Positions 1 through 13,089 of a stretch of DNA of 64,000 bases are shown in pieces (position 1 is the first letter of the stretch; every line of letters begins with the position of its first letter). The translations under genes were made by a program, and so were the position numbers. The notes below the pieces were generated by a model. That model had not been told where the DNA came from. It was given only the letters and a program-made list of their open reading frames with translations, and did not search any database. The DNA comes from Magnetococcales bacterium (lineage in GTDB: Bacteria > Pseudomonadota > Magnetococcia > Magnetococcales > UBA8363): positions 1 through 64,000 of the forward strand of contig JADGCV010000021.1 of the NCBI GenBank assembly GCA_015228815.1, written 5' to 3'.

Positions 1-94
1 AAATTAAGGAAAGTTACATGCCGATCATGCCACATTTGAAGCCCGAAAACTACGTGTCCCGTGATGGTTGCGGTTTACATACTCTGGGTATGTC
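1..94. other. Flank distal to the CRISPR array, no gene seen
   Basis: These 94 bases lie beyond the oldest (distal) repeat. I looked for a degenerate terminal repeat or another spacer-length unit and saw none, and no convincing gene is visible. The array therefore appears to end at base 95, not to continue off the window edge, although a gap or rearrangement just outside cannot be excluded. Confidence 0.6.
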
Positions 95-3000
95 GTTTCA
101 ATCCGCGCCCCCGCACGGGGGGCGACTTATACGGATTATTTGTTTTCGTCAACAAAAGTTGTTTCAATCCGCGCCCCCGCACGGGGGGCGACCATTTTCG
201 AAAAGTTACCACTTGCGGAAATTATAGTTTCAATCCGCGCCCCCGCACGGGGGGCGACCTCTTTTTTGCTCGTCACGGTGGCGGATAGGGCAGTTTCAAT
301 CCGCGCCCCCGCACGGGGGGCGACGCAACTGGCTCGTCGGAATCAGCAAAACGAGAAATGCAGTTTCAATCCGCGCCCCCGCACGGGGGGCGACTTGATT
401 ACTCTTTCTTGGTAGTCCCGTCAGGAGTTGTTTCAATCCGCGCCCCCGCACGGGGGGCGACTGCGCAGGTCGTTTCTGGACAATCGTTCGTCCTGGTTTC
501 AATCCGCGCCCCCGCACGGGGGGCGACATAGCACCAAGGCCGAGGATGTGCAGCGGCTCATGTTTCAATCCGCGCCCCCGCACGGGGGGCGACCGGTACA
601 GGACGTTTTTGTGTGCCATGGCACAATGTTTCAATCCGCGCCCCCGCACGGGGGGCGACGAGCATGATGACTACTTGCAAATCATCATGCGGGTTTCAAT
701 CCGCGCCCCCGCACGGGGGGCGACCGCCTTCTTGGCGCGACAATATGTCTTTATTTGCGTGTTTCAATCCGCGCCCCCGCACGGGGGGCGACATCATATC
801 TGAGGGAGACAATAAATGACTACAGAGTTTCAATCCGCGCCCCCGCACGGGGGGCGACCTATTCTCATAAAATCATCGACCAGAATGGGATTGTTTCAAT
901 CCGCGCCCCCGCACGGGGGGCGACGTGTCCATGATGGTGGCCCAAGCTGTGTCTGGGAGGTTTCAATCCGCGCCCCCGCACGGGGGGCGACTTTATTCAT
1001 CGACGGATGGCGAAGCATGGTACATGTTTCAATCCGCGCCCCCGCACGGGGGGCGACCAGCAATATGCTGACTTTGTCGATCAAATGGAAAGTTTCAATC
1101 CGCGCCCCCGCACGGGGGGCGACTGATCAAGGCGGATGCTCCATCTTCCGCCTTTACGTTTCAATCCGCGCCCCCGCACGGGGGGCGACCTTCGACTCAA
1201 TTTTCAACCTCAAATTGGCGTCGTTTCAATCCGCGCCCCCGCACGGGGGGCGACGAGCGATGTAATTGATGTAATGGTGTTTGGAGTGTTTCAATCCGCG
1301 CCCCCGCACGGGGGGCGACCAGGTCGGTACAAAAATGCTCCTGTACCGTGCAGTTTCAATCCGCGCCCCCGCACGGGGGGCGACCCTTGCGGCGGACAGC
1401 CTCTGATACGACATCAGACGTTTCAATCCGCGCCCCCGCACGGGGGGCGACGTCGGACGGGATTGGCTTGGACGACAAAAAATGGTTTCAATCCGCGCCC
1501 CCGCACGGGGGGCGACGAGGGATTTATGGACTGGCCCAGTACATCACTTGTTTCAATCCGCGCCCCCGCACGGGGGGCGACATTAGTCAATTCATGGAGG
1601 ATTCGACATACAACGGTTTCAATCCGCGCCCCCGCACGGGGGGCGACTCAATGGACTCCGTTATCGTATCACTGGCGGACAGTTTCAATCCGCGCCCCCG
1701 CACGGGGGGCGACTAGAATTGTTCAATTGCTCTGGCGTCCCAATAAGTTTCAATCCGCGCCCCCGCACGGGGGGCGACTCAAGCTACTCTTGATGATTTC
1801 AACGTTGAGACGTTTCAATCCGCGCCCCCGCACGGGGGGCGACCCGTCCAGCTAATACCTATCCAGCCAGACAGGCGTTTCAATCCGCGCCCCCGCACGG
1901 GGGGCGACCATGAGCCGCGGCTGGCCGTTCATATCGAAGCGGTTTCAATCCGCGCCCCCGCACGGGGGGCGACGATTGTTTCCTTCCAGTTTATTATATT
2001 TTCGCAAGTTTCAATCCGCGCCCCCGCACGGGGGGCGACTCTTCGCCATCGTTGGTCGTCCATGCCATGACGTGTTTCAATCCGCGCCCCCGCACGGGGG
2101 GCGACCCCCCTTCGAGATCACACCGTCACCAGGGAGGAGTTTCAATCCGCGCCCCCGCACGGGGGGCGACGACATCTTGCAAATTATCATGCTCACTTAC
2201 CTCGTTTCAATCCGCGCCCCCGCACGGGGGGCGACCACAAAAAAGTCATTTGCATCACCATATCCAGGTGTTTCAATCCGCGCCCCCGCACGGGGGGCGA
2301 CCGTTCAAAAACGTTACTTGGATTCGACCGAAAATGTTTCAATCCGCGCCCCCGCACGGGGGGCGACAAGCTGTTATCAACGGGAAGCGGTATGATACTG
2401 AGTTTCAATCCGCGCCCCCGCACGGGGGGCGACACACCGTTGGGTGGAAATGAGGTGGCGGGGGGGGTTTCAATCCGCGCCCCCGCACGGGGGGCGACTA
2501 ATCCCATCATTTTGCATCAAATAATCATGTAAGTTTCAATCCGCGCCCCCGCACGGGGGGCGACTTATGGTACGCAAAATGTTATATTGCGTGCAAAAGT
2601 TTCAATCCGCGCCCCCGCACGGGGGGCGACTCCAGCAAGGATGATTAATGCTCAACTTCAATTGTTTCAATCCGCGCCCCCGCACGGGGGGCGACTTTTC
2701 GCTTATGCATCCATTCTTGGATGCAAAGGCGTTTCAATCCGCGCCCCCGCACGGGGGGCGACCGCCTGGACTGCCGCCAGGGCCGCACAATTAGTGTTTC
2801 AATCCGCGCCCCCGCACGGGGGGCGACATCGGTACGCGAATCCCTTCAGTCTTAATGATCTGTTTCAATCCGCGCCCCCGCACGGGGGGCGACGATTCGG
2901 CGGCCTTCTGAGAGACAAATATATAGGTTTCAATCCGCGCCCCCGCACGGGGGGCGACGCTTCCAGGGCCATCCGTTTTTTTGCCTCCACCTGTTTCAAT

Positions 3001-5058
3001 CCGCGCCCCCGCACGGGGGGCGACCCGTAAGGTCTTGGCTGTGATCAATACCCTTGCGTTTCAATCCGCGCCCCCGCACGGGGGGCGACCAGAGATCAAG
3101 GAGCACTTCCCCCGGTCTTGTTGTTTCAATCCGCGCCCCCGCACGGGGGGCGACTAGACCTTGATACCAAATCGGCCCTCTGTTGCAAGTTTCAATCCGC
3201 GCCCCCGCACGGGGGGCGACCGTCCAACCGTAGGGAGGACGCCACCGTGGGTGGGTTTCAATCCGCGCCCCCGCACGGGGGGCGACCCGTTGCTGCTTCC
3301 ATTACCGCTTCCATGCTCTCGTTTCAATCCGCGCCCCCGCACGGGGGGCGACTTTCCCATGGGGCGAGGGGGATCTTGCCGATCACGTTTCAATCCGCGC
3401 CCCCGCACGGGGGGCGACTTTGGATCGCGCCATGTGGCGCGCTGTGCCTGGCGTTTCAATCCGCGCCCCCGCACGGGGGGCGACAAGCAGATTGCGGCAA
3501 GCGACCTGCGTGTTTACGTTTCAATCCGCGCCCCCGCACGGGGGGCGACAATCTTTGATCACATTGACGCAATGTTTTGATATGTTTCAATCCGCGCCCC
3601 CGCACGGGGGGCGACACGAGCTGGCGCATAGGTACAGCTTATCCTGGCGTTTCAATCCGCGCCCCCGCACGGGGGGCGACGACCGATCGACTGGCAAGTA
3701 CGATTGATCATCCAAGTTTCAATCCGCGCCCCCGCACGGGGGGCGACATGCCGTGGCGGGCAAATCCGGGTGCCATGGGAGTTTCAATCCGCGCCCCCGC
3801 ACGGGGGGCGACCAGTTATTTGAATACGCCAGTATCTCTTTACAGGTTTCAATCCGCGCCCCCGCACGGGGGGCGACTAGGACCGGGCAGTCCGTTCAAG
3901 GTCCGCGACGGTTTCAATCCGCGCCCCCGCACGGGGGGCGACGGCGGGATTGCCGCCAAGACCGGTCACGACATTTGTTTCAATCCGCGCCCCCGCACGG
4001 GGGGCGACAAGGGTCTCGCCAAGGCCGTCACCTACGATGGCGTTTCAATCCGCGCCCCCGCACGGGGGGCGACCTGGCCAAGCTGGCCGAAAGGAGGTTC
4101 GCTGAGGGTTTCAATCCGCGCCCCCGCACGGGGGGCGACCTTTTCCAGTCCGCCTTGCCGGTGGTGACAAACTGTTTCAATCCGCGCCCCCGCACGGGGG
4201 GCGACGATAGGAGTGACAGGTCAACGTGCCGCTGCCGTAGTTTCAATCCGCGCCCCCGCACGGGGGGCGACATCCAGGCCGACCCGGATCCAATTCGAGG
4301 TAAATGTTTCAATCCGCGCCCCCGCACGGGGGGCGACTGCCTTAAATCGTATCAATAGTCGTGAGGAAGCGGTTTCAATCCGCGCCCCCGCACGGGGGGC
4401 GACCAGGGTGAGTGTGGTCTTTTCTCACCAAGAGTGGGTTTCAATCCGCGCCCCCGCACGGGGGGCGACTCCATTACTTTATTTTCTTTTTTTGGATCTT
4501 GCGTTTCAATCCGCGCCCCCGCACGGGGGGCGACCGCCTGGGGCAGGACGTCGTCCGGGTGGACGAGGTTTCAATCCGCGCCCCCGCACGGGGGGCGACC
4601 ATTGATGTTGGCGTCGTTGCCAGGACAGACGTGTTTCAATCCGCGCCCCCGCACGGGGGGCGACCATCGAAGGAGAGGCTGAAAGGGCAAAAGCAAAGGT
4701 TTCAATCCGCGCCCCCGCACGGGGGGCGACTACATGTTGCGGTTAATGTCGGGGTAAATTCTGCGTTTCAATCCGCGCCCCCGCACGGGGGGCGACGTTC
4801 TCCGACCGCGGAGAGCCTTCCCGCAAGAGGTTTCAATCCGCGCCCCCGCACGGGGGGCGACTAGTCATTTATTGTCTCTCTCAGATATGATAGAGGTTTC
4901 AATCCGCGCCCCCGCACGGGGGGCGACTCTCCCTGCCGCGTCACGGCGGCAGGTCAATCCTGTTTCAATCCGCGCCCCCGCACGGGGGGCGACCTTCCTG
5001 GCGCGACATTTGATAAAAAAACAAAAGTTTCAATCCGCGCCCCCGCACGGGGGGCGAC
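95..5058 (-). CRISPR. Type I-C CRISPR array, 76 repeats and 75 spacers
   Basis: A 32-bp repeat occurs 76 times, the first at 95-126 and the last at 5027-5058. It is separated by 75 spacers of 33-38 bp, mostly 33-34. Read on the minus strand the repeat begins GTCGCCCCCC and ends GGATTGAAAC, the usual ending of type I-C repeats. It contains a 7-bp stem (CGCCCCC with GGGGGCG) around a 5-nt CGTGC loop. Cutting at the 3' base of that stem, as Cas5d does, would leave the 11-nt handle CGGATTGAAAC, the length known for I-C. By eye all 76 repeats are identical, including the distal one, which is often degenerate in other arrays. The leader and cas2 lie at the 5058 side, so the newest spacers are near 5000 and the oldest near 127. 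Several spacers are related to each other (see findings). Confidence 0.99.
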
Positions 5059-5233
5059 TGCTCCATTGTAACTACAATGGAATGAAAAACATTTCAAGGC
5101 TATTTGCGCGAACCCTTGATAATGAGGTGATTGTTGTAGCGAAAATTTTTCCTTATTATTTATTATCAATCAGATACGATAAACATAAAGATGATGTGCA
5201 ATATGTACGCTAATGGTTCGCGACGAGTCATGC
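5059..5233 (-). promoter_or_regulatory. CRISPR leader (transcription and integration signals)
   Basis: This AT-rich 175-bp gap lies between the cas2 stop and the leader-proximal repeat, where the I-C leader is expected. It has a perfect 8-bp inverted repeat (CCATTGTA, 5063-5070, and TACAATGG, 5073-5080) only 4 bp from the first repeat. A second 8-bp pair, CGCGAACC (5107-5114) and GGTTCGCG (5215-5222), brackets about 100 bp. Leader function is inferred from position and base composition. I did not pin down a -35/-10 pair. Confidence 0.8.
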
Positions 5234-5524
5234 TTATACGATCAGAGGACCCTCAATATTGAATGAGGGTTTTGCACCAATATGCTCAACGCGAGATTCC
5301 CAGTTATTACCAAGATTATAGAAACGGAGGCTGTCTTTTTTGGGATTGATCAATTTTGTCAGGTCATTTTTCAGTGTCACATACTGAGCTGGGTCTACTT
5401 TGCACTCAAAAACAGAGTTTTGGACACGTTGTCCGTAGTCGAGACACTTTTTTGCCACGTGTCGTAGGCGTCGTTGGCCGCCAACATCTGAAGTGGAGAC
5501 ATCGTAGGCGATAAGCAAATACAT
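5234..5524 (-). CDS. cas2: CRISPR-associated protein Cas2 (type I-C)
   Basis: A 96-residue protein of typical Cas2 length. It opens with MYLLIAYDVST, the ferredoxin-like first strand with the conserved Asp8 of the Cas2 fold, and continues with a Cas2-type RRLRHVAKKCLDYG helix. Cas2 dimerises and bridges Cas1 dimers to form the spacer integration complex. The frame stays open upstream, but the ATG at 5524 has an AGGAAA Shine-Dalgarno just before it and gives the family N-terminus. It lies 10 bp after cas1 as the last gene of the operon and directly abuts the leader, the usual I-C order. Confidence 0.95.
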   Translation of the reverse strand: MYLLIAYDVSTSDVGGQRRLRHVAKKCLDYGQRVQNSVFECKVDPAQYVTLKNDLTKLINPKKDSLRFYNLGNNWESRVEHIGAKPSFNIEGPLIV

Positions 5525-5534
5525 TTTGTGTTTC

Positions 5535-6569
5535 CTATTTCCAGAGGAAGGCGGGATAGAGGTCCAAATCACCACGGAGATGACGGGCAAGAAGCCGGGC
5601 CTGAATGTGTGGCAAGAGACCGACTTCCATTTTTTCATTGAGAAATGGATGCGTCAGTGATTCGCGCTTGCGTTCCTGCCAGGCGACCAGAACCTTTTTA
5701 CGAGCCTCATCTTTGAGCAAAACGGCTCCGTTTTCATGGTGGTCAAAATCGTTGGCGGTTATCTGTTTGCGATTGAACAGTCCGAGAACCAATCGATCTG
5801 CCAGAAAAGGGCGAAACTCTTCCATCAAATCGAGTGCCAGGGAGGGACGACCGGGTCGATCCCTATGTAGAAATCCTACGGCGGCGTCCAATCCACAAGC
5901 CTCCAGGGCAGAACGACAGTCATGGGCGAGGAGGGAGTAGGAGAATGATAGCAATGCGTTGACCGGATCACGTGGTGGACGACGGTTGCGTCCATTCAAA
6001 ACAAGGGTGGGATCCTCTGTCGTCAACATATGGGAAAAAGCCCCAAAATAAACGACAGCCGCATCTCCCTCGATTCCGATCAGTGATTCCCGATCTTCTG
6101 TACGCTCGGCACTGCCAACGGATTGTTTCAGAAGCTTGACGGCGTCCTGGATGTGATCATTCCCCAATCCATTCGGACGATCTCGCAGCGTCCGTTGCAA
6201 TGAAGATCGGGAATTTGCGATTTTGGCAAGGATGAACTGTCGCGCAATGAGCAACGAAGCGTCACTCCGATCGGCACGACGATATTGCTCTCGCCGAAGC
6301 AAGACATTTCCCGGAGTAAACCCACTGACAGCCGCCAGAAAACGACCATGGGGGGTGCAGAAAGACAAGGTTACCCCCGATTCGGCGCAGGCAGCCATAA
6401 GATGCGAAGATGCCGAAATATCCCATCCCAGGCAGAGGATTCCATCGAGATTGTGCAGGGGAGCACGCAGTAACACTTCCCCATTCAATCGAACTTCGAC
6501 GGTCTCTCCCGACTTGCCAAGCCACGATCCCTCACGAGTGACAAACAGAGTGTTCAGATAGTGTGTCAT
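5535..6569 (-). CDS. cas1: CRISPR-associated endonuclease Cas1 (type I-C)
   Basis: A 344-residue metal-dependent integrase that inserts new spacers next to the leader. The Cas1 metal site is visible: Glu167 in GIEGDAAVVYFGAF, His235 in GFLHRDRPGRPSL, and Asp247 with the following Glu residues in ALDLMEEFRP. The N-terminal beta-rich domain starts at MTHYLNTLFVTREG. Length and motif order match full-length Cas1, so nothing suggests inactivation. Its ATG overlaps the cas4 TGA by 4 nt (ATGA), which implies translational coupling. Confidence 0.97.
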   Translation of the reverse strand: MTHYLNTLFVTREGSWLGKSGETVEVRLNGEVLLRAPLHNLDGILCLGWDISASSHLMAACAESGVTLSFCTPHGRFLAAVSGFTPGNVLLRREQYRRADRSDASLLIARQFILAKIANSRSSLQRTLRDRPNGLGNDHIQDAVKLLKQSVGSAERTEDRESLIGIEGDAAVVYFGAFSHMLTTEDPTLVLNGRNRRPPRDPVNALLSFSYSLLAHDCRSALEACGLDAAVGFLHRDRPGRPSLALDLMEEFRPFLADRLVLGLFNRKQITANDFDHHENGAVLLKDEARKKVLVAWQERKRESLTHPFLNEKMEVGLLPHIQARLLARHLRGDLDLYPAFLWK

Positions 6570-7237
6570 GGGTCATGATCCAACATGTGACGCAAACCCT
6601 TCCGAAACCAAAGAGAAGCCTGTTCCTCTCGCCCCTCCCGACGGGGAAGACACAATTCCAACAGCGAACAGGCACGACAACGTTTGGCAAGATACCGCTC
6701 CGGTGGGGTCACCCCTTCGAAAAAGAGTTTTTTGACCCCATTGATGGCAACAAGGGTGGTGTTACGCAATTCGGCGGAAATGGTTACCGGAAGGCGATGC
6801 CGGGTCTCGCCATAAAAAAGCGTCCCCTCGGTGATGGAAATTCCCAGCATCTCCTCCAAACACAAAACCTGGGCGCAAAGTTGTACCGTATCGGCCTCAT
6901 GAACCTTTGGCCGCCCCCGTTTGTATTCGATGGGAATCACGGCACTCCAAGGTCCACGTCGCGACCGTCCCAATGGTATCCATTCGACGCAATCACATTG
7001 GCCACCGATTCCCAACTTTTCCGAGAACACAGGCATGCCGTGACGGAGGATGACGCCGGGACGGCGTTCCACCGTTTGTTCATGGACACGTTCGTGAAGT
7101 ACGCCACCTTCCGCCGTCCAACGATTTTCAGCCCAAAGCCGCTCCAGATGGATCAATGCACATTGGCGCGGGCAAAACAGAAAATGTTGCAGGGCTGAAA
7201 TGGGAACATTCGTTCCCATTTCATCATTGCTGCCCAT
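6566..7237 (-). CDS. cas4: CRISPR-associated exonuclease Cas4 (type I-C)
   Basis: A 223-residue Cas4 of the RecB-like PD-(D/E)XK family. Four cysteines that can hold the Fe-S cluster are present: Cys22 in FLFCPRQC, then Cys187, Cys190 and Cys196 in CRACSLLELC. Nuclease residues include His48, Asp82 and the Glu104/Lys106 pair in IPIEYKRG. In I-C systems Cas4 works with Cas1-Cas2 to trim prespacers and choose those with a correct PAM. The stop overlaps the cas1 start by 4 nt. The gene follows cas7 closely in the operon. Confidence 0.96.
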   Translation of the reverse strand: MGSNDEMGTNVPISALQHFLFCPRQCALIHLERLWAENRWTAEGGVLHERVHEQTVERRPGVILRHGMPVFSEKLGIGGQCDCVEWIPLGRSRRGPWSAVIPIEYKRGRPKVHEADTVQLCAQVLCLEEMLGISITEGTLFYGETRHRLPVTISAELRNTTLVAINGVKKLFFEGVTPPERYLAKRCRACSLLELCLPRREGREEQASLWFRKGLRHMLDHDP

Positions 7238-7241
7238 GGAT

Positions 7242-8195
7242 CTACAACCGACGCACCAAGGTCACCTTGCCATTCTCGGTGACCTGCAGACGGTCGCCGA
7301 CATGGATTTTTTCCTCCAAAGGCTTGCCATCCAGAAGAATCTGATAGTCGGAGAAGGAACGAGACGGTCTGTCGGCAGCCAAACGTTCCGGATTCGCCAC
7401 CACCGTCACACGGTCAAACAACACATGGGCAGGCGCGTTGCCCATGGGGGTCTCGTGCCGAAAGATCAGTAGTGCCCGAGGTGTCATTTCACCGCGCGCC
7501 GCCGAGCGATCATGCTCGAACATTTCTTCCAGGGATTGCCAGAGCAATTCGACGTCGGCATCGGAAAAACCTGTCTGCGCCGCCAGGGGAGCACTGACAA
7601 ATCCATGGGTCCGATACAAACCATAGGGAATGGTGAATTTTCGTCCCATGGTACGGTTGTCGCCACCTTGCTTTTCTGCCTCTTCCTTGGTGGTGACCGC
7701 CATACGGGTGATGCTGTGTTCCGCAGTGATGACCGGATCGATGCTCCGTCCGAAGGTGAATTGCACCGGACCACGTACTTGACCGCAGTTGACTCCGGTG
7801 GTCATGACCGCTCCAAAAGCGCGTACATCATAAAAGTTCCCGCACATCCATCTTTTGGCCTTTTCGACATCGTCACCACCACCCTTGCGTTTTCCCTTCT
7901 CGCCCTCCAGAGGAAACCCGCAGGCGATATAGGCCCGTTCATGTTGCTGGTTCAAAATGGCCTTTTCACGTACATAGATTTCATATCCCTGGGGATTTTC
8001 TTTCCCACCCTGACTGTGATCGATACCATGGGACAGCTGGACATAGTTGCGAATTTTGCGTTTGAGACAGACATCGGTCACCAGTCCATGACCGGTTTCG
8101 GCATCCACTCGGGGCAGATTGCCAGCGTCCGGATCACCGTTGGGATTGCCGTCGCGGACGTCGAAAAGATAGATGAAATCATATCTGTTATTCAT
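7242..8195 (-). CDS. cas7: Cascade backbone protein Cas7 (Csd2, type I-C)
   Basis: A 317-residue Csd2/Cas7 RAMP protein with the family N-terminus [20 protein letters not shown] and a [16 protein letters not shown]-like core (here [14 protein letters not shown]). Multiple copies form the filament that coats the crRNA spacer in the I-C Cascade complex. The ATG at 8195 overlaps the cas8c stop by 4 nt (ATGA). Length and motifs look complete. Confidence 0.96.
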
Positions 8196-10003
8196 TCATT
8201 GCTCCCTTGTTTCGCTTCATTGCGGGTAAAAAATGATTGACGTTGATGGTAATAGCCGATGGCAAAGGCTCCCTGTTCCTCAAGAGACAAACTTTTTGGT
8301 ATCTTGTCGATACCGTTCATGATTTCCTGGATCAATCGTTCACGATTGATTTTGGCGCCAGGATTCAATTTGGCCAGGTGGTGTTGATAGGTTCGCAACA
8401 ACCTTGGCATGACCGCTCCCGGCGTGGCGGAAGCGGCGCCAAAGAAACGGTCGCGTATGGTGGCATTGATCCCGGGAAGGGCCTCTTCCTGGGTTTTTTC
8501 CAGGGCGGCAAAGAGACGTCCCATGCGGTAAGAGGGTTCGGTACGTTCGGAATCGAGACTCACAGGTGGTTCTCCTTGGTAATGAGCGGATCGAGTCAGC
8601 CAAGCCTTCAGCATGGCCGCACGACAATAATTGATCACACGATCGGCACGAATGCGGCGGATCAGGGCGGCGGCCAGAGCGTTGGGATAGGGACCTCCTC
8701 CAAGAATGGCACGCAACAGGGCGCCGCCCAACAAGGGAGGAATATCCTTTGTATCACGCACGGTTTCCCGCAAGATTCTCCAGACGGGAATGAACTCGGG
8801 GTCAGGATGTTTGCTGTCAGGACCGTGCTGTACCGCAATTTTCAGTGCGGAATAATGGTCGCGAAGACACTCTATGAAAGAGCCAAGCGTCGAAACGTTC
8901 CAAAAACGGACAGACATGCGTCCGGCGTTGGGTGAGAGTCCCAACAGGTAGAACGGGGTCATCGGGTCGTCTCCGATGACGTTCAAATTGCCGCTGCCAT
9001 GCCGCAGGGCCATCAGAAACCCTTCCATATGACGAAGGGTCTCGACATCCTGTGCGTCATCTTGTCGGTTTCCTCCCGCGCCATCGGTAAAGAAACCGGC
9101 CAGCAGATCTTCGCTAACGGTTTTCTGTCCTGTCCACAGGGCCACCGTGTCTCCTGCCAGGGAAAAACGATGCCGTCCCTTTCGCGGTCCATCCAGAAGG
9201 GCATTGATGGCCGTGCAGTAGCGAAAGGCCGCATGTTGTGACACCGGTGCGTTGAAACTTTGTTCCTTGGCATAGGAGGTGAAGGTTTCGTCGTTGAACG
9301 AAACCAGGGGGGCCCCGGCAGACTGGGTTCCGTGGACCCCCTTGATTTTGGGTTCGTGCAGGCGCGCCATGGACTGATCGGGCAAACCGCTGATCAGACA
9401 CATCCCCCGGACATTTTCCTTGTCGCCCTCTTCAGGAACCGATCCCGGCAGATTTCGGCGCCACCATGCCTGAATGATCGGGCGGTCGTGAACATATTCC
9501 AGCGCCCCCTGGAGTCGAAAGACGCCAAAACCGGTGTTCAATTCCGCCAGATGAGGAAAGTCAACGCCACGTTCGGGACTCCAGGATTCCAGAAAGCGAC
9601 AGACGGCGGAAAATCCCGGATCGGCAATCTGTTGTTCAAGTTCCAGATGGTGTTTGCGAAACGCCGCGAAACAGGCCCGGGTCCGTTCCGGTTTGTCCTT
9701 GGTGTCATAACCCAGAAGATATGTTGCATTGTTCCAGAGAAAACCGGGATGAATGCCGCTGCCGGATGGTTTGGCCTGTCCCGGAACAATCCGCGGTTTT
9801 GCGGTCATGGCCTGTTTGCTTTTGCCATTTTTCAAGGGAATCGTGATCTCTTCACGCTCATCCTGGATGGAGTTCAGTGTTCCGTCCTCGGTCAGGATGA
9901 CGGAAAAAGTCAATTTTTGCTGGCTGAACCCCGGTTCGGCCACCCCATATTCCGGTTCGCGGGCCAGCCGGTCATAAAGATGATACAAGGATTGCAGAAT
10001 CAT
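8192..10003 (-). CDS. cas8c: Cascade large subunit Cas8c (Csd1)
   Basis: A 603-residue Csd1/Cas8c protein starting [13 protein letters not shown], the characteristic family N-terminus. This large subunit reads the PAM and stabilises the displaced strand; in I-C the small subunit Cas11c can be made by internal initiation within this gene. An open frame continues 38 codons upstream, but the ATG at 10003 overlaps the cas5 TGA by 4 nt and yields the family start. The C-terminal helical part (about residues 480-603) is where an internal Cas11c start would lie; I did not identify a clear internal ribosome site. Confidence 0.95.
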
Positions 10004-10746
10004 CGTCCGTACTCCTGGCAGGGGGTCGCCAGGCATGCGGCCAGATCGATGACACCATCCACCATGTGGGCACGGAAAAATCGTGGGACGCACCGTTCGG
10101 TGCAGCAATGCCGCCATCCCTGATCCTTCCGTGCGTCATGGACCAGGTCGTGAAGCATGAAGCCCAGATCTTTCGAACCTTTTAATTCCTCGGGCAATTC
10201 ATTGGTCCAGGCTTCGAATTCTCCCGGTTGTGCCGGACGAACGTGGGCAGAAAACTCCCGGCATCCCAGGTAGGGACGATGAAAACAGGATCCCTGTTGC
10301 AACCGTCGGCGTGCCGTATCCAGGTGTTTGGCGACCGGTTCGGCAGAAAGATCGCCGTTGCGTTCCCGTGGATCCAGCACTTCAATGTGCGCTTCGATGC
10401 CGTAACGAACATCCGTCAAGATCAACCCTGCCCGCTGCTGGCGATTGTCTTCAATAGTAATTCCCAGGTGAACCTTGCCACCCCCCATGGCCTGTTTGAT
10501 CTTGGGGATGGAAACCTTGTGTGGATCCCCCACTTCGTTGCGGCGTATGTTGGTGAAACGGATCGGACGCAAAACCCGGATGCGGTCCACAACCCAACGC
10601 ATCTGCGGCTTCCAGTAGATCGCCTCCAGAATACCCCGGGCCCCGGATGGCGTCATGACATCGTAGGAAACCCGCTCCACCTTCATTTCCGGTCGCGTCC
10701 AACAGGCATAATCGCCCCAGACAACCAGTTGCACTCCATAATTCAT
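10000..10746 (-). CDS. cas5: Pre-crRNA endonuclease Cas5d (type I-C)
   Basis: A 248-residue Cas5d RAMP protein. In I-C systems, which lack Cas6, this subunit cuts the repeat RNA at the base of its hairpin and stays on the 5' handle. Supporting stretches are VWGDYACWTRPEMKVERVSY near the N-terminus and SGARGILEAIYWKPQMRW, the conserved region that carries the tyrosine linked to catalysis in studied Cas5d enzymes. It lies 33 bp after cas3 and overlaps cas8c by 4 nt. The repeat hairpin and predicted 11-nt handle in the array match this activity. Confidence 0.96.
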   Translation of the reverse strand: MNYGVQLVVWGDYACWTRPEMKVERVSYDVMTPSGARGILEAIYWKPQMRWVVDRIRVLRPIRFTNIRRNEVGDPHKVSIPKIKQAMGGGKVHLGITIEDNRQQRAGLILTDVRYGIEAHIEVLDPRERNGDLSAEPVAKHLDTARRRLQQGSCFHRPYLGCREFSAHVRPAQPGEFEAWTNELPEELKGSKDLGFMLHDLVHDARKDQGWRHCCTERCVPRFFRAHMVDGVIDLAACLATPCQEYGR

Positions 10747-10779: not shown

Positions 10780-13089
10780 CTAACCGATCAATCGCGCCGG
10801 ATCGATGGGTCCCTTGACACTATTTTTCAAACCTGTAAATGCGTCATAGTCATGTCCCGGATGCGTCAGAATGAAAAACCGACCGTGCAACGGTTCCGGG
10901 TCGATCATCGCATGTTGAATCATCTGGGCGAACTCCCACTCGGGAACGGTGACAATATAACGTTGTAACGTGCGACTGGCCTTCGCAATGAATTCCCTGG
11001 CAGGTTTTTGAATCTTTCTCAATGTTTCCACAAGAGTTTCTGACCGATCATCCCAGGGGATGATGATCGGACGTTGTCCGTCGTCAATAAGGCGAAAACG
11101 TTCGGCAGCGGTTTTGAATTGGAAGGGAAACAGGGATTCCGGGCAACTGCCCAGTTTGAACAGTTGCATGATGTCTCCCTTGTCCCAGTCATGAGTGCCC
11201 TGAGCATTCCAATAATGGAGGCGAAAATAATGGTCGATGGCCTTCAAACCAAGAGGGTCGTTGCCATATTGGGGCAGTTCGATGATTTCACGGGTCAAAT
11301 CCGCGGTTTTCCGTTGTTCTCCTGCCGGGATGTGTTGTTTTTCATGCGGTACGAAGATGAACAGGTTGCCGGTTCTGGCACGGCCTTCGCGATTGCATCG
11401 CCCCGCGGCCTGCACCAAGGAAGGGAGGGAAGCCATGGCGCGCCAGATCACGGGAAAATCCAGATCGACCCCTGCTTCCACCAATTGGGTGGAAACCACC
11501 CGGCACTCCTGTTCTGCTTTGAGCCGCGCTCGAATTTCATTCAAGACGGTGGTTCGATGCTGGGGACACATGCGGGCACTCAGATGCAGGCAATGATCGG
11601 AAACCTTGTCCAGGACATCGAACAATTCCCGGGCATGACGGCGGGTATTGACAATGATCATCCCCTGTTTGACGCCAGCCAGTTGTCCAGCCAGATCGTG
11701 GTCCGTCACCGGTTGCGTGCAATAATGGACCTGAACCCTTTTGAGGGCGGTGAACAATGTTTCAGGGTTGGAAACAAGTTCCCGCATGTCCACCAGGCCA
11801 ATGGGAAAATCGGAACGCCGTCCCAGGGCGGGTTGGGTCGCGGTGCAGGAAACCACCGAGCACCCATAGCGGGCAGTCAATTCTTTCAGAACTTCGAGCG
11901 CGGGTCGCAACAAGGTGACGGGCAGGGACTGGGACTCGTCGAGGATGATCACCGAGCCGGCGATGCGATGCAGTTTGCGGCAACGCCCGGGACGATGGGC
12001 GAACAGCGATTCAAAAAACTGAACATTCGTGGTCACGATTACGGGTGCGTCCCAGTTTTCCGCGGATAAACGGGTATGTTGTGTCTTTGGATCGTCCACA
12101 TCCAGGTTGGCATGATGTTCCAAGACGATTTCAGGTCCCAAAGCGGCCAATGCCTCCCGAAACCGATCAGCGGTTTGTTCGATGATGCTGGTAAAGGGAA
12201 TGACATAGATGACCCGGCGCAAGTCATGGTGGGCGGCATGACGAAGGGCAAACGAAAGTGAGGAAAATGTTTTTCCGCCACCGGTGGGAACGGTCAGGGA
12301 AAAGAATCCCGTTTCGTCTTCCGCTCTGGCACGGCAGGCGCGGAGAACATCATGACGATGGCGATGTACCTGGGTTTCTGCCTCCGGAAACCTCGCCGCC
12401 AGCCATTCATCAAGAGTCTTCGACAATCGCGCCATCCCCGGTCCTTCGCTGGGACGTTGCGCTGCCTTGTCGGGAGACATGAAGCGTTCCGTGGCCAGGA
12501 AATCGGCATCGGTAAGACAGGAAAAAAGCATGCGAATGAACAATGCCGCAGCAAATCCATCCCGTGGCAGGGGAAAAGATTTTGCGGAAAATTGCATGAT
12601 CTTAAGAACTTCGCCAGGGGCACATGATCGCCATTCCTGATCGATGGTTTTGCGCAACCTGTATTTGAGGGCCGATTCCGAAGATTGAGAATCCCAATCC
12701 GCAAGACCCGCATGATGACCGGCGACAACATAGGCCAGAATCAGTCCCAGAGGTCCAAGCATCTCCACCGCATAGTGTGCCCCGGCAGTGGAATGATCGA
12801 CTCGTCCCAGGTCCGAGGCATGACAGTCCGGATCGGTTGCCCTGTGCAGGTAGGTTTGAAAGGCCTGAGTGAATTTGCCCAGGTCATGCCATCGTCCGGC
12901 AATACCGCCAATTTTACGGGCAAAAGTTCGCAGTTCGGTCCTGTGTTCCGGAAACATCCGTTCCGCAAACACTGCCGTCATGGCTTCGACCTGGTTGGCG
13001 TGTCCATGGGGATGTTCCCACAAGGGGTCGTCTATATATCTTTTATCTTCAGATTCTGCCGTCCGTCGATGTGCAATATGAATTATCAT
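10780..13089 (-). CDS. cas3: CRISPR helicase-nuclease Cas3 (HD plus DExH)
   Basis: A 769-residue single-chain Cas3. The N-terminal HD nuclease has His68-Asp69 in GRWHDLGKF, then DHSTAGAHY and AGHHAG. The superfamily 2 helicase has the Walker A loop at 269-274 (TGGGKT), motif II DESQ at 384-387, the SCTATQP motif III and a late QAAGRCNREGR motif VI. Cascade recruits Cas3 to unwind and degrade target DNA. The ATG at 13089 is the first in-frame start and has no strong Shine-Dalgarno. As the first cas gene, it is preceded by an AT-rich region with palindromes. Confidence 0.96.
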   Translation of the reverse strand: MIIHIAHRRTAESEDKRYIDDPLWEHPHGHANQVEAMTAVFAERMFPEHRTELRTFARKIGGIAGRWHDLGKFTQAFQTYLHRATDPDCHASDLGRVDHSTAGAHYAVEMLGPLGLILAYVVAGHHAGLADWDSQSSESALKYRLRKTIDQEWRSCAPGEVLKIMQFSAKSFPLPRDGFAAALFIRMLFSCLTDADFLATERFMSPDKAAQRPSEGPGMARLSKTLDEWLAARFPEAETQVHRHRHDVLRACRARAEDETGFFSLTVPTGGGKTFSSLSFALRHAAHHDLRRVIYVIPFTSIIEQTADRFREALAALGPEIVLEHHANLDVDDPKTQHTRLSAENWDAPVIVTTNVQFFESLFAHRPGRCRKLHRIAGSVIILDESQSLPVTLLRPALEVLKELTARYGCSVVSCTATQPALGRRSDFPIGLVDMRELVSNPETLFTALKRVQVHYCTQPVTDHDLAGQLAGVKQGMIIVNTRRHARELFDVLDKVSDHCLHLSARMCPQHRTTVLNEIRARLKAEQECRVVSTQLVEAGVDLDFPVIWRAMASLPSLVQAAGRCNREGRARTGNLFIFVPHEKQHIPAGEQRKTADLTREIIELPQYGNDPLGLKAIDHYFRLHYWNAQGTHDWDKGDIMQLFKLGSCPESLFPFQFKTAAERFRLIDDGQRPIIIPWDDRSETLVETLRKIQKPAREFIAKASRTLQRYIVTVPEWEFAQMIQHAMIDPEPLHGRFFILTHPGHDYDAFTGLKNSVKGPIDPARLIG

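Follow-up and report, generated by a model that had tools for sequence, protein, structure and literature searches.

Overlapping spacers in type I-C CRISPR arrays are already known from Legionella. In Legionella pneumophila Toronto-2005, overlapping spacer pairs of the I-C array against the mobile element LME-1 are read as recurrent challenge; in two such pairs the newer spacer is a perfect match, whereas the older one is mismatched in the PAM or seed (PMC5071653). The same report describes laboratory I-C priming, in which one protospacer was re-acquired independently and 20 of 22 unique spacers had a GAA/TTC PAM (PMC5071653). The pair described here comprises spacers 11 and 73 of an array in a 64,000-nt stretch of DNA (the window) from an uncultured Magnetococcales-like host. 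It shares with the Legionella pairs the subtype, the single array, and the presence of an older and a newer spacer on one site. It differs in that the Legionella target is a known mobile element and the older spacer is mismatched in the PAM or seed, whereas the site of spacers 11 and 73 is known from the spacers alone and its visible difference falls outside the seed. Two independently acquired spacers on the same protospacer also characterize the laboratory case, but that was a laboratory plasmid under passage, and ours is a natural record. One mark of recurrent challenge is that two spacers of one array, acquired at different times, overlap on one site; the pair bears this mark and is a further case of a known phenomenon. 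A literature search on Magnetococcales and CRISPR spacers found nothing, and a search on overlapping or redundant spacers found nothing on point among titles and abstracts. The pair adds an independent natural case of one foreign site captured repeatedly, although taken alone it is no more than the usual sign of recurring infection.

The earlier note on this DNA had assigned the system to type I-C, and the cas genes bear this out. Beyond the array, the minus strand carries cas2, cas1, cas4, cas7, cas8c, cas5, and cas3, all seven of which were found by Pfam (Table 1). The set is complete and has a Csd1-type large subunit; therefore, the system is type I-C. The identical repeats end in ATTGAAAC, a form that we take to be typical of type I-C, and the orientation of the array agrees with the side on which the PAM lies. 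Among named genomes, the closest Cas1, with 71% identity, is that of a Magnetococcales metagenome-assembled genome. The array is predicted to read on the minus strand, starting at a putative leader that adjoins cas2, with transcription away from cas2.

Table 1. Coordinates of the CRISPR-Cas features and of individual spacers in the window
Feature	Position	Strand	Evidence or remark
End of multi-copy insertion sequence IS_B, interrupts array; contig start	1..77		Identical contig ends in same genome
17-nt remnant of spacer cut by IS_B	78..94	-	Rebuilds 33-nt spacer with C75 tail and 4-bp duplication
Type I-C CRISPR array	95..5058	-	76 identical 32-nt repeats, 75 spacers
Spacer 7	528..561	-	TTC-PAM targets: 32/34 in G020; 28/34 in G004, ParB/DNA methyltransferase gene
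Spacer 11	793..826	-	65th from leader; 30-nt overlap with spacer 73, opposite strand
Spacer 34	2302..2335	-	33/34 identical, same register, to C86 spacer 14; another resampled site
Spacer 43	2894..2926	-	TTC-PAM target, 28/33, in G003 beside phage-type primase and helicase genes
Spacer 68	4535..4567	-	30/33 match, CTC not TTC, own genome's phage tape-measure gene
Spacer 73	4862..4895	-	Third from leader; other strand of same 38-bp site, one G/A difference
Leader region between array and cas2	5059..5233	-	Inferred from position
cas2	5234..5638	-	PF09827 5.8e-27
cas1	5535..6569	-	PF01867 1.6e-100
cas4	6566..7237	-	PF01930 7.9e-22
cas7	7242..8195	-	PF05107 3.9e-105
cas8c (Csd1)	8192..10117	-	PF09709 8.3e-166
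cas5 (Cas5d, crRNA processing in I-C)	10000..10746	-	PF09704 2.3e-42
cas3	10780..13089	-	HD and helicase domains

The array extends beyond the window. At up to three mismatches, the genome holds 297 copies of the repeat: 76 on the window contig (C21), 133 on C75, 86 on C86, and two lone copies on C50. The insertion sequence in which the window begins shares 74 to 77 identical nucleotides with the ends of contigs C2, C12, C30, C52, and C87. The C75 tail ends in a partial spacer that joins the remnant at the start of the window over a 4-bp duplication, and the tail of C86 joins the head of C75 over a 3-bp duplication to give a 34-nt spacer. Because these target-site duplications connect the contig ends, the window array is probably the leader-proximal part of a single array of at least 294 spacers that was broken by two insertion sequences. 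Variant repeats are present on C75 and C86 and absent from the window array, which fits the expectation for older parts of an array. The array may continue still farther, since C86 itself opens with another insertion-sequence end plus a partial spacer. Spacer 11, which had been placed at the old end, is therefore not there: the window starts within an interrupting insertion sequence, and approximately 217 more spacers lie on the two other contigs. The interruptions are of two kinds, each within a spacer and with duplications of 3 bp and 4 bp. Near one copy of the insertion sequences there is a transposase-type helix-turn-helix slightly below the Pfam cutoff.

The earlier note had also described spacers 11 and 73 as overlapping from opposite strands over 30 bp, with one mismatch and an offset of 4. 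Both spacers are 34 nt long; 29 of 30 bases are common to spacer 11 and the reverse complement of spacer 73, the single difference is G/A, and joining the two rebuilds a site of 38 bp, the length previously given. The local score of the pair (+1/-2) was 27, whereas shuffling all 75 window spacers 20 times gave 12 at most. No other window pair scored at least 15, and pairs 9/32 (score 14) and 10/75 (score 12) were at noise level. Each of the two spacers has four end bases that are absent from its partner, so neither is a copy of the other and there were two acquisitions. On their sequences, spacers 11 and 73 are acquisitions from variants of one outside site of at least 38 bp, one G/A apart. 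Self-cleavage of the array by their crRNAs is not expected, since on each other's array spacer the first four bases face repeat sequence and the place of the PAM is occupied by GGG.

We consider it highly probable that one site was captured on two separate occasions, once from each strand, from a recurring related element. A phage or plasmid lineage would have entered the host lineage and yielded spacer 11 from one strand, next to a TTC. When 61 further acquisitions had been made, a related element would have returned, as a variant if the G/A difference is a guide, and the same spot would have yielded spacer 73 from the other strand. The 38-bp site would then carry TTC on each outer side, and re-acquisition may have been primed after escape. 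Of the recurring virus or plasmid that had been proposed, repeated exposure to related DNA stands, given one site sampled twice, on both strands, and at different times; the expected match to a mobile element did not appear. The pair is real, but it is what repeated attack by related invaders ordinarily leaves behind.

The motif that had been suggested as the PAM, TTC, adjoins the targets of most other spacers for which targets were found, so the suggestion holds for this system. We compared 291 spacers with 44 fetched loci outside the array at 80% identity or more; the loci had been picked for spacer matches and not for PAM. In crRNA orientation, TTC lay immediately 5' of one or more targets for seven of the 10 spacers with targets (C21-7, C21-43, C75-10, C75-11, C86-27, C86-33, and C86-53, with C86-27 and C86-33 representing one site). 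The remaining three had CAT (C21-62), CTC (C21-68), and TCC (C86-59), and one exact 35/35 match of C86-53 carries CAG. Tape-measure genes and a ParB/DNA methyltransferase gene contained targets, and other targets neighbored phage-type primase and helicase genes. A 99-nt piece of C86, a "spacer" with a missed degenerate repeat, was left out of the spacer sets used here and for the relative-array, pair, and gene-start analyses.

Resampling was not restricted to spacers 11 and 73. Among 293 spacers of the whole array (294 minus the 99-nt piece), there were 18 overlapping pairs with a score of at least 15, while 20 shuffled sets of 291 spacers yielded one overlapping pair in total. Twelve pairs shared the same PAM register (11 exactly and one off by one), two were shifted, and four were on opposite strands. 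This 12:2:4 distribution roughly fits an expected ratio of about 1:0.5:0.55 for same-site, shifted, and opposite-strand pairs, which is our own rough count and assumes that any TTC is chosen with equal chance. At least one substitution was present in the overlap of 14 pairs, and none in that of the other four. Some of the identical same-register pairs could be array duplications; the pair 11/73 cannot. Paired spacers were not significantly close in time (median gap of 74 versus a null mean of 93, P = 0.23, 18 pairs).

Long I-C arrays of the same order likewise hold overlapping spacers. After identical spacers were collapsed per relative and lengths outside 28 to 42 nt were left out, we counted six pairs among 161 spacers in G005, two among 62 in G015, 10 among 135 in G018 (partly covered), and 23 among 159 in G020. 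The small related sets contained one pair among 18 spacers (L051) and none among nine (G008), so that overlapping pairs occurred in five of six related sets, the sixth being the one with only nine spacers. No spacer of these relatives, including those of the four long arrays, overlapped with a spacer of this array at a score of at least 15, and none overlapped with the 38-bp site at a score of 12. A broader reading treats the array as a long record through time of a few virus lineages that were resampled at hot spots defined by the PAM, with opposite-strand pairs like 11/73 marking sites of 34 to 38 bp that have TTC on both outer sides; we offer it tentatively and lean against it. If it is true, virus evolution at fixed sites could be read from a single bacterial genome. 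With the 18 pairs, variants and PAM register can be inferred without looking beyond the array; the pairs also name sequences to seek in viromes of the same habitat.

As a refinement of the main reading, spacer 11 may have weakly recognized an escape variant and thereby driven the capture of spacer 73. Such priming would agree with the overlapping I-C pairs of Legionella, with their perfect newer and mismatched older spacers (PMC5071653). The pair 11/73 also has one difference. Counted from the PAM of spacer 11, however, that difference occupies position 22, which is outside the seed, so it would amount to weak escape at most and gives no direct sign of escape. The PAM and positions 1 to 4 of spacer 11 lie beyond the reach of spacer 73, which means that an escape mutation in that PAM or in those first four seed bases would not be visible. 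With the four pairs whose overlaps lack a substitution, and hence show no escape, also weighing against it, we regard priming as falling a little short of probable.

If spacers 11 and 73 derive from a recurring element, that element is not among the sequences that we searched. The 30-base core of the site had no match in IMG/VR or GTDB contigs, and at up to three mismatches it was found only in the array itself among 61 genomes of the order and phylum (48 and 13, respectively, the former including the host's own). Searches of IMG/VR with each half of the site retrieved nothing, and phage and plasmid collections returned only short chance matches to the 38-mer (45 to 63% coverage, E of 0.5 or worse). 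The match to a mobile element that had been anticipated, and whose absence had been named beforehand as refuting, was therefore not obtained from any of these sources, but these collections contain few viruses of this host. A 21-base core did match eight IMG/VR contigs, and we rejected this as a chance match of one lineage because all eight represent the start of the same gene, with 25 of 38 bases and no TTC/GAA flanks. By eye, we take this gene to be RecA-like. None of the 75 window spacers matched the phage collection at E 1, so that collection seems to lack the viruses that infect this host. A codon-degenerate search of IMG/VR with another resampled pair (C75 13/74) likewise found nothing.

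The same searches bear on whether the site is part of a host gene, or of a host-resident element in a sister strain, and was taken up by self-acquisition. Spacer 10 of C75 matches the host's own genome perfectly and with TTC, which indicates that resident elements or relatives have been sampled. But at up to three mismatches, the 38-bp site is absent from the 47 other genomes of the order and is present in the own genome in spacers 11 and 73 alone, so the outcome named beforehand as refuting, a match to the host genome only, did not occur. We judge self-acquisition of this site to be unlikely. It is far less probable still that spacer 73 was made from spacer 11 by copying or inversion within the array. 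Although both are in one array, the repeats are not inverted and one base differs. With both spacers written in the direction of spacer 11, the CTCT of spacer 73 falls where spacer 11 gives way to repeat sequence, and the CAGA of spacer 11 falls at the corresponding border of spacer 73; these private ends refute the idea. Finally, the shuffles refute a chance overlap, whose probability is practically nil at the observed score.

The 38-bp site had further been read as the start of a gene. It contains GGAG, 7 nt, and ATG, with an overlapping stop. Shine-Dalgarno-plus-ATG patterns occurred in 15 of 291 spacers compared to a mean of 11.6 (range, 6 to 22) in 50 shuffles, and two of the six frames are open through the whole site. 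Because the pattern is no commoner in spacers than in shuffles and two frames are open, it is uninformative.

Several spacers had targets of independent interest. The perfect self-match of C75 spacer 10 (33/33, with TTC) is at L020:2081-2113 on contig C10, in a phage tape-measure gene of the own genome that spacer 68 also matches. That a resident prophage is fully targetable points to an anti-CRISPR, to inactivity of the system, or to an assembly in which strains are mixed. Spacer 11 of C75 matches short multi-copy sequences with TTC in G002, G004, and G007 (L093, L095, L101, L118, and L122), two copies of which are 106 bp apart in G002; the target is perhaps a small mobile repeat that was sampled as an invader. 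The site sampled twice by C86 spacers 27 and 33 has matches of 29-30/34-35 in G003 and G007 (L108, L109, L119, and L120). Because TTC is present in all four loci, tracing can be taken further for at least one of the resampled elements. In G020, which belongs to another family, C21-7 (32/34, with TTC) and C86-53 (35/35, without TTC) match within 0.7 kb of each other (L117, G020:C88, approximately 9964-10641), in a shared mobile element that may show PAM escape.

Solitary repeats in phages are reported to serve as RNA anti-CRISPRs (PMC10651486). The two lone repeats on C50 are perfect copies situated 5 kb apart in a chromosomal region that is not an obvious prophage (L029:14275-14306 on the minus strand and L029:19248-19279 on the plus strand). 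The orthologous places in the relative G002 are without them, and in this genome each lies upstream of a gene in the sense direction.
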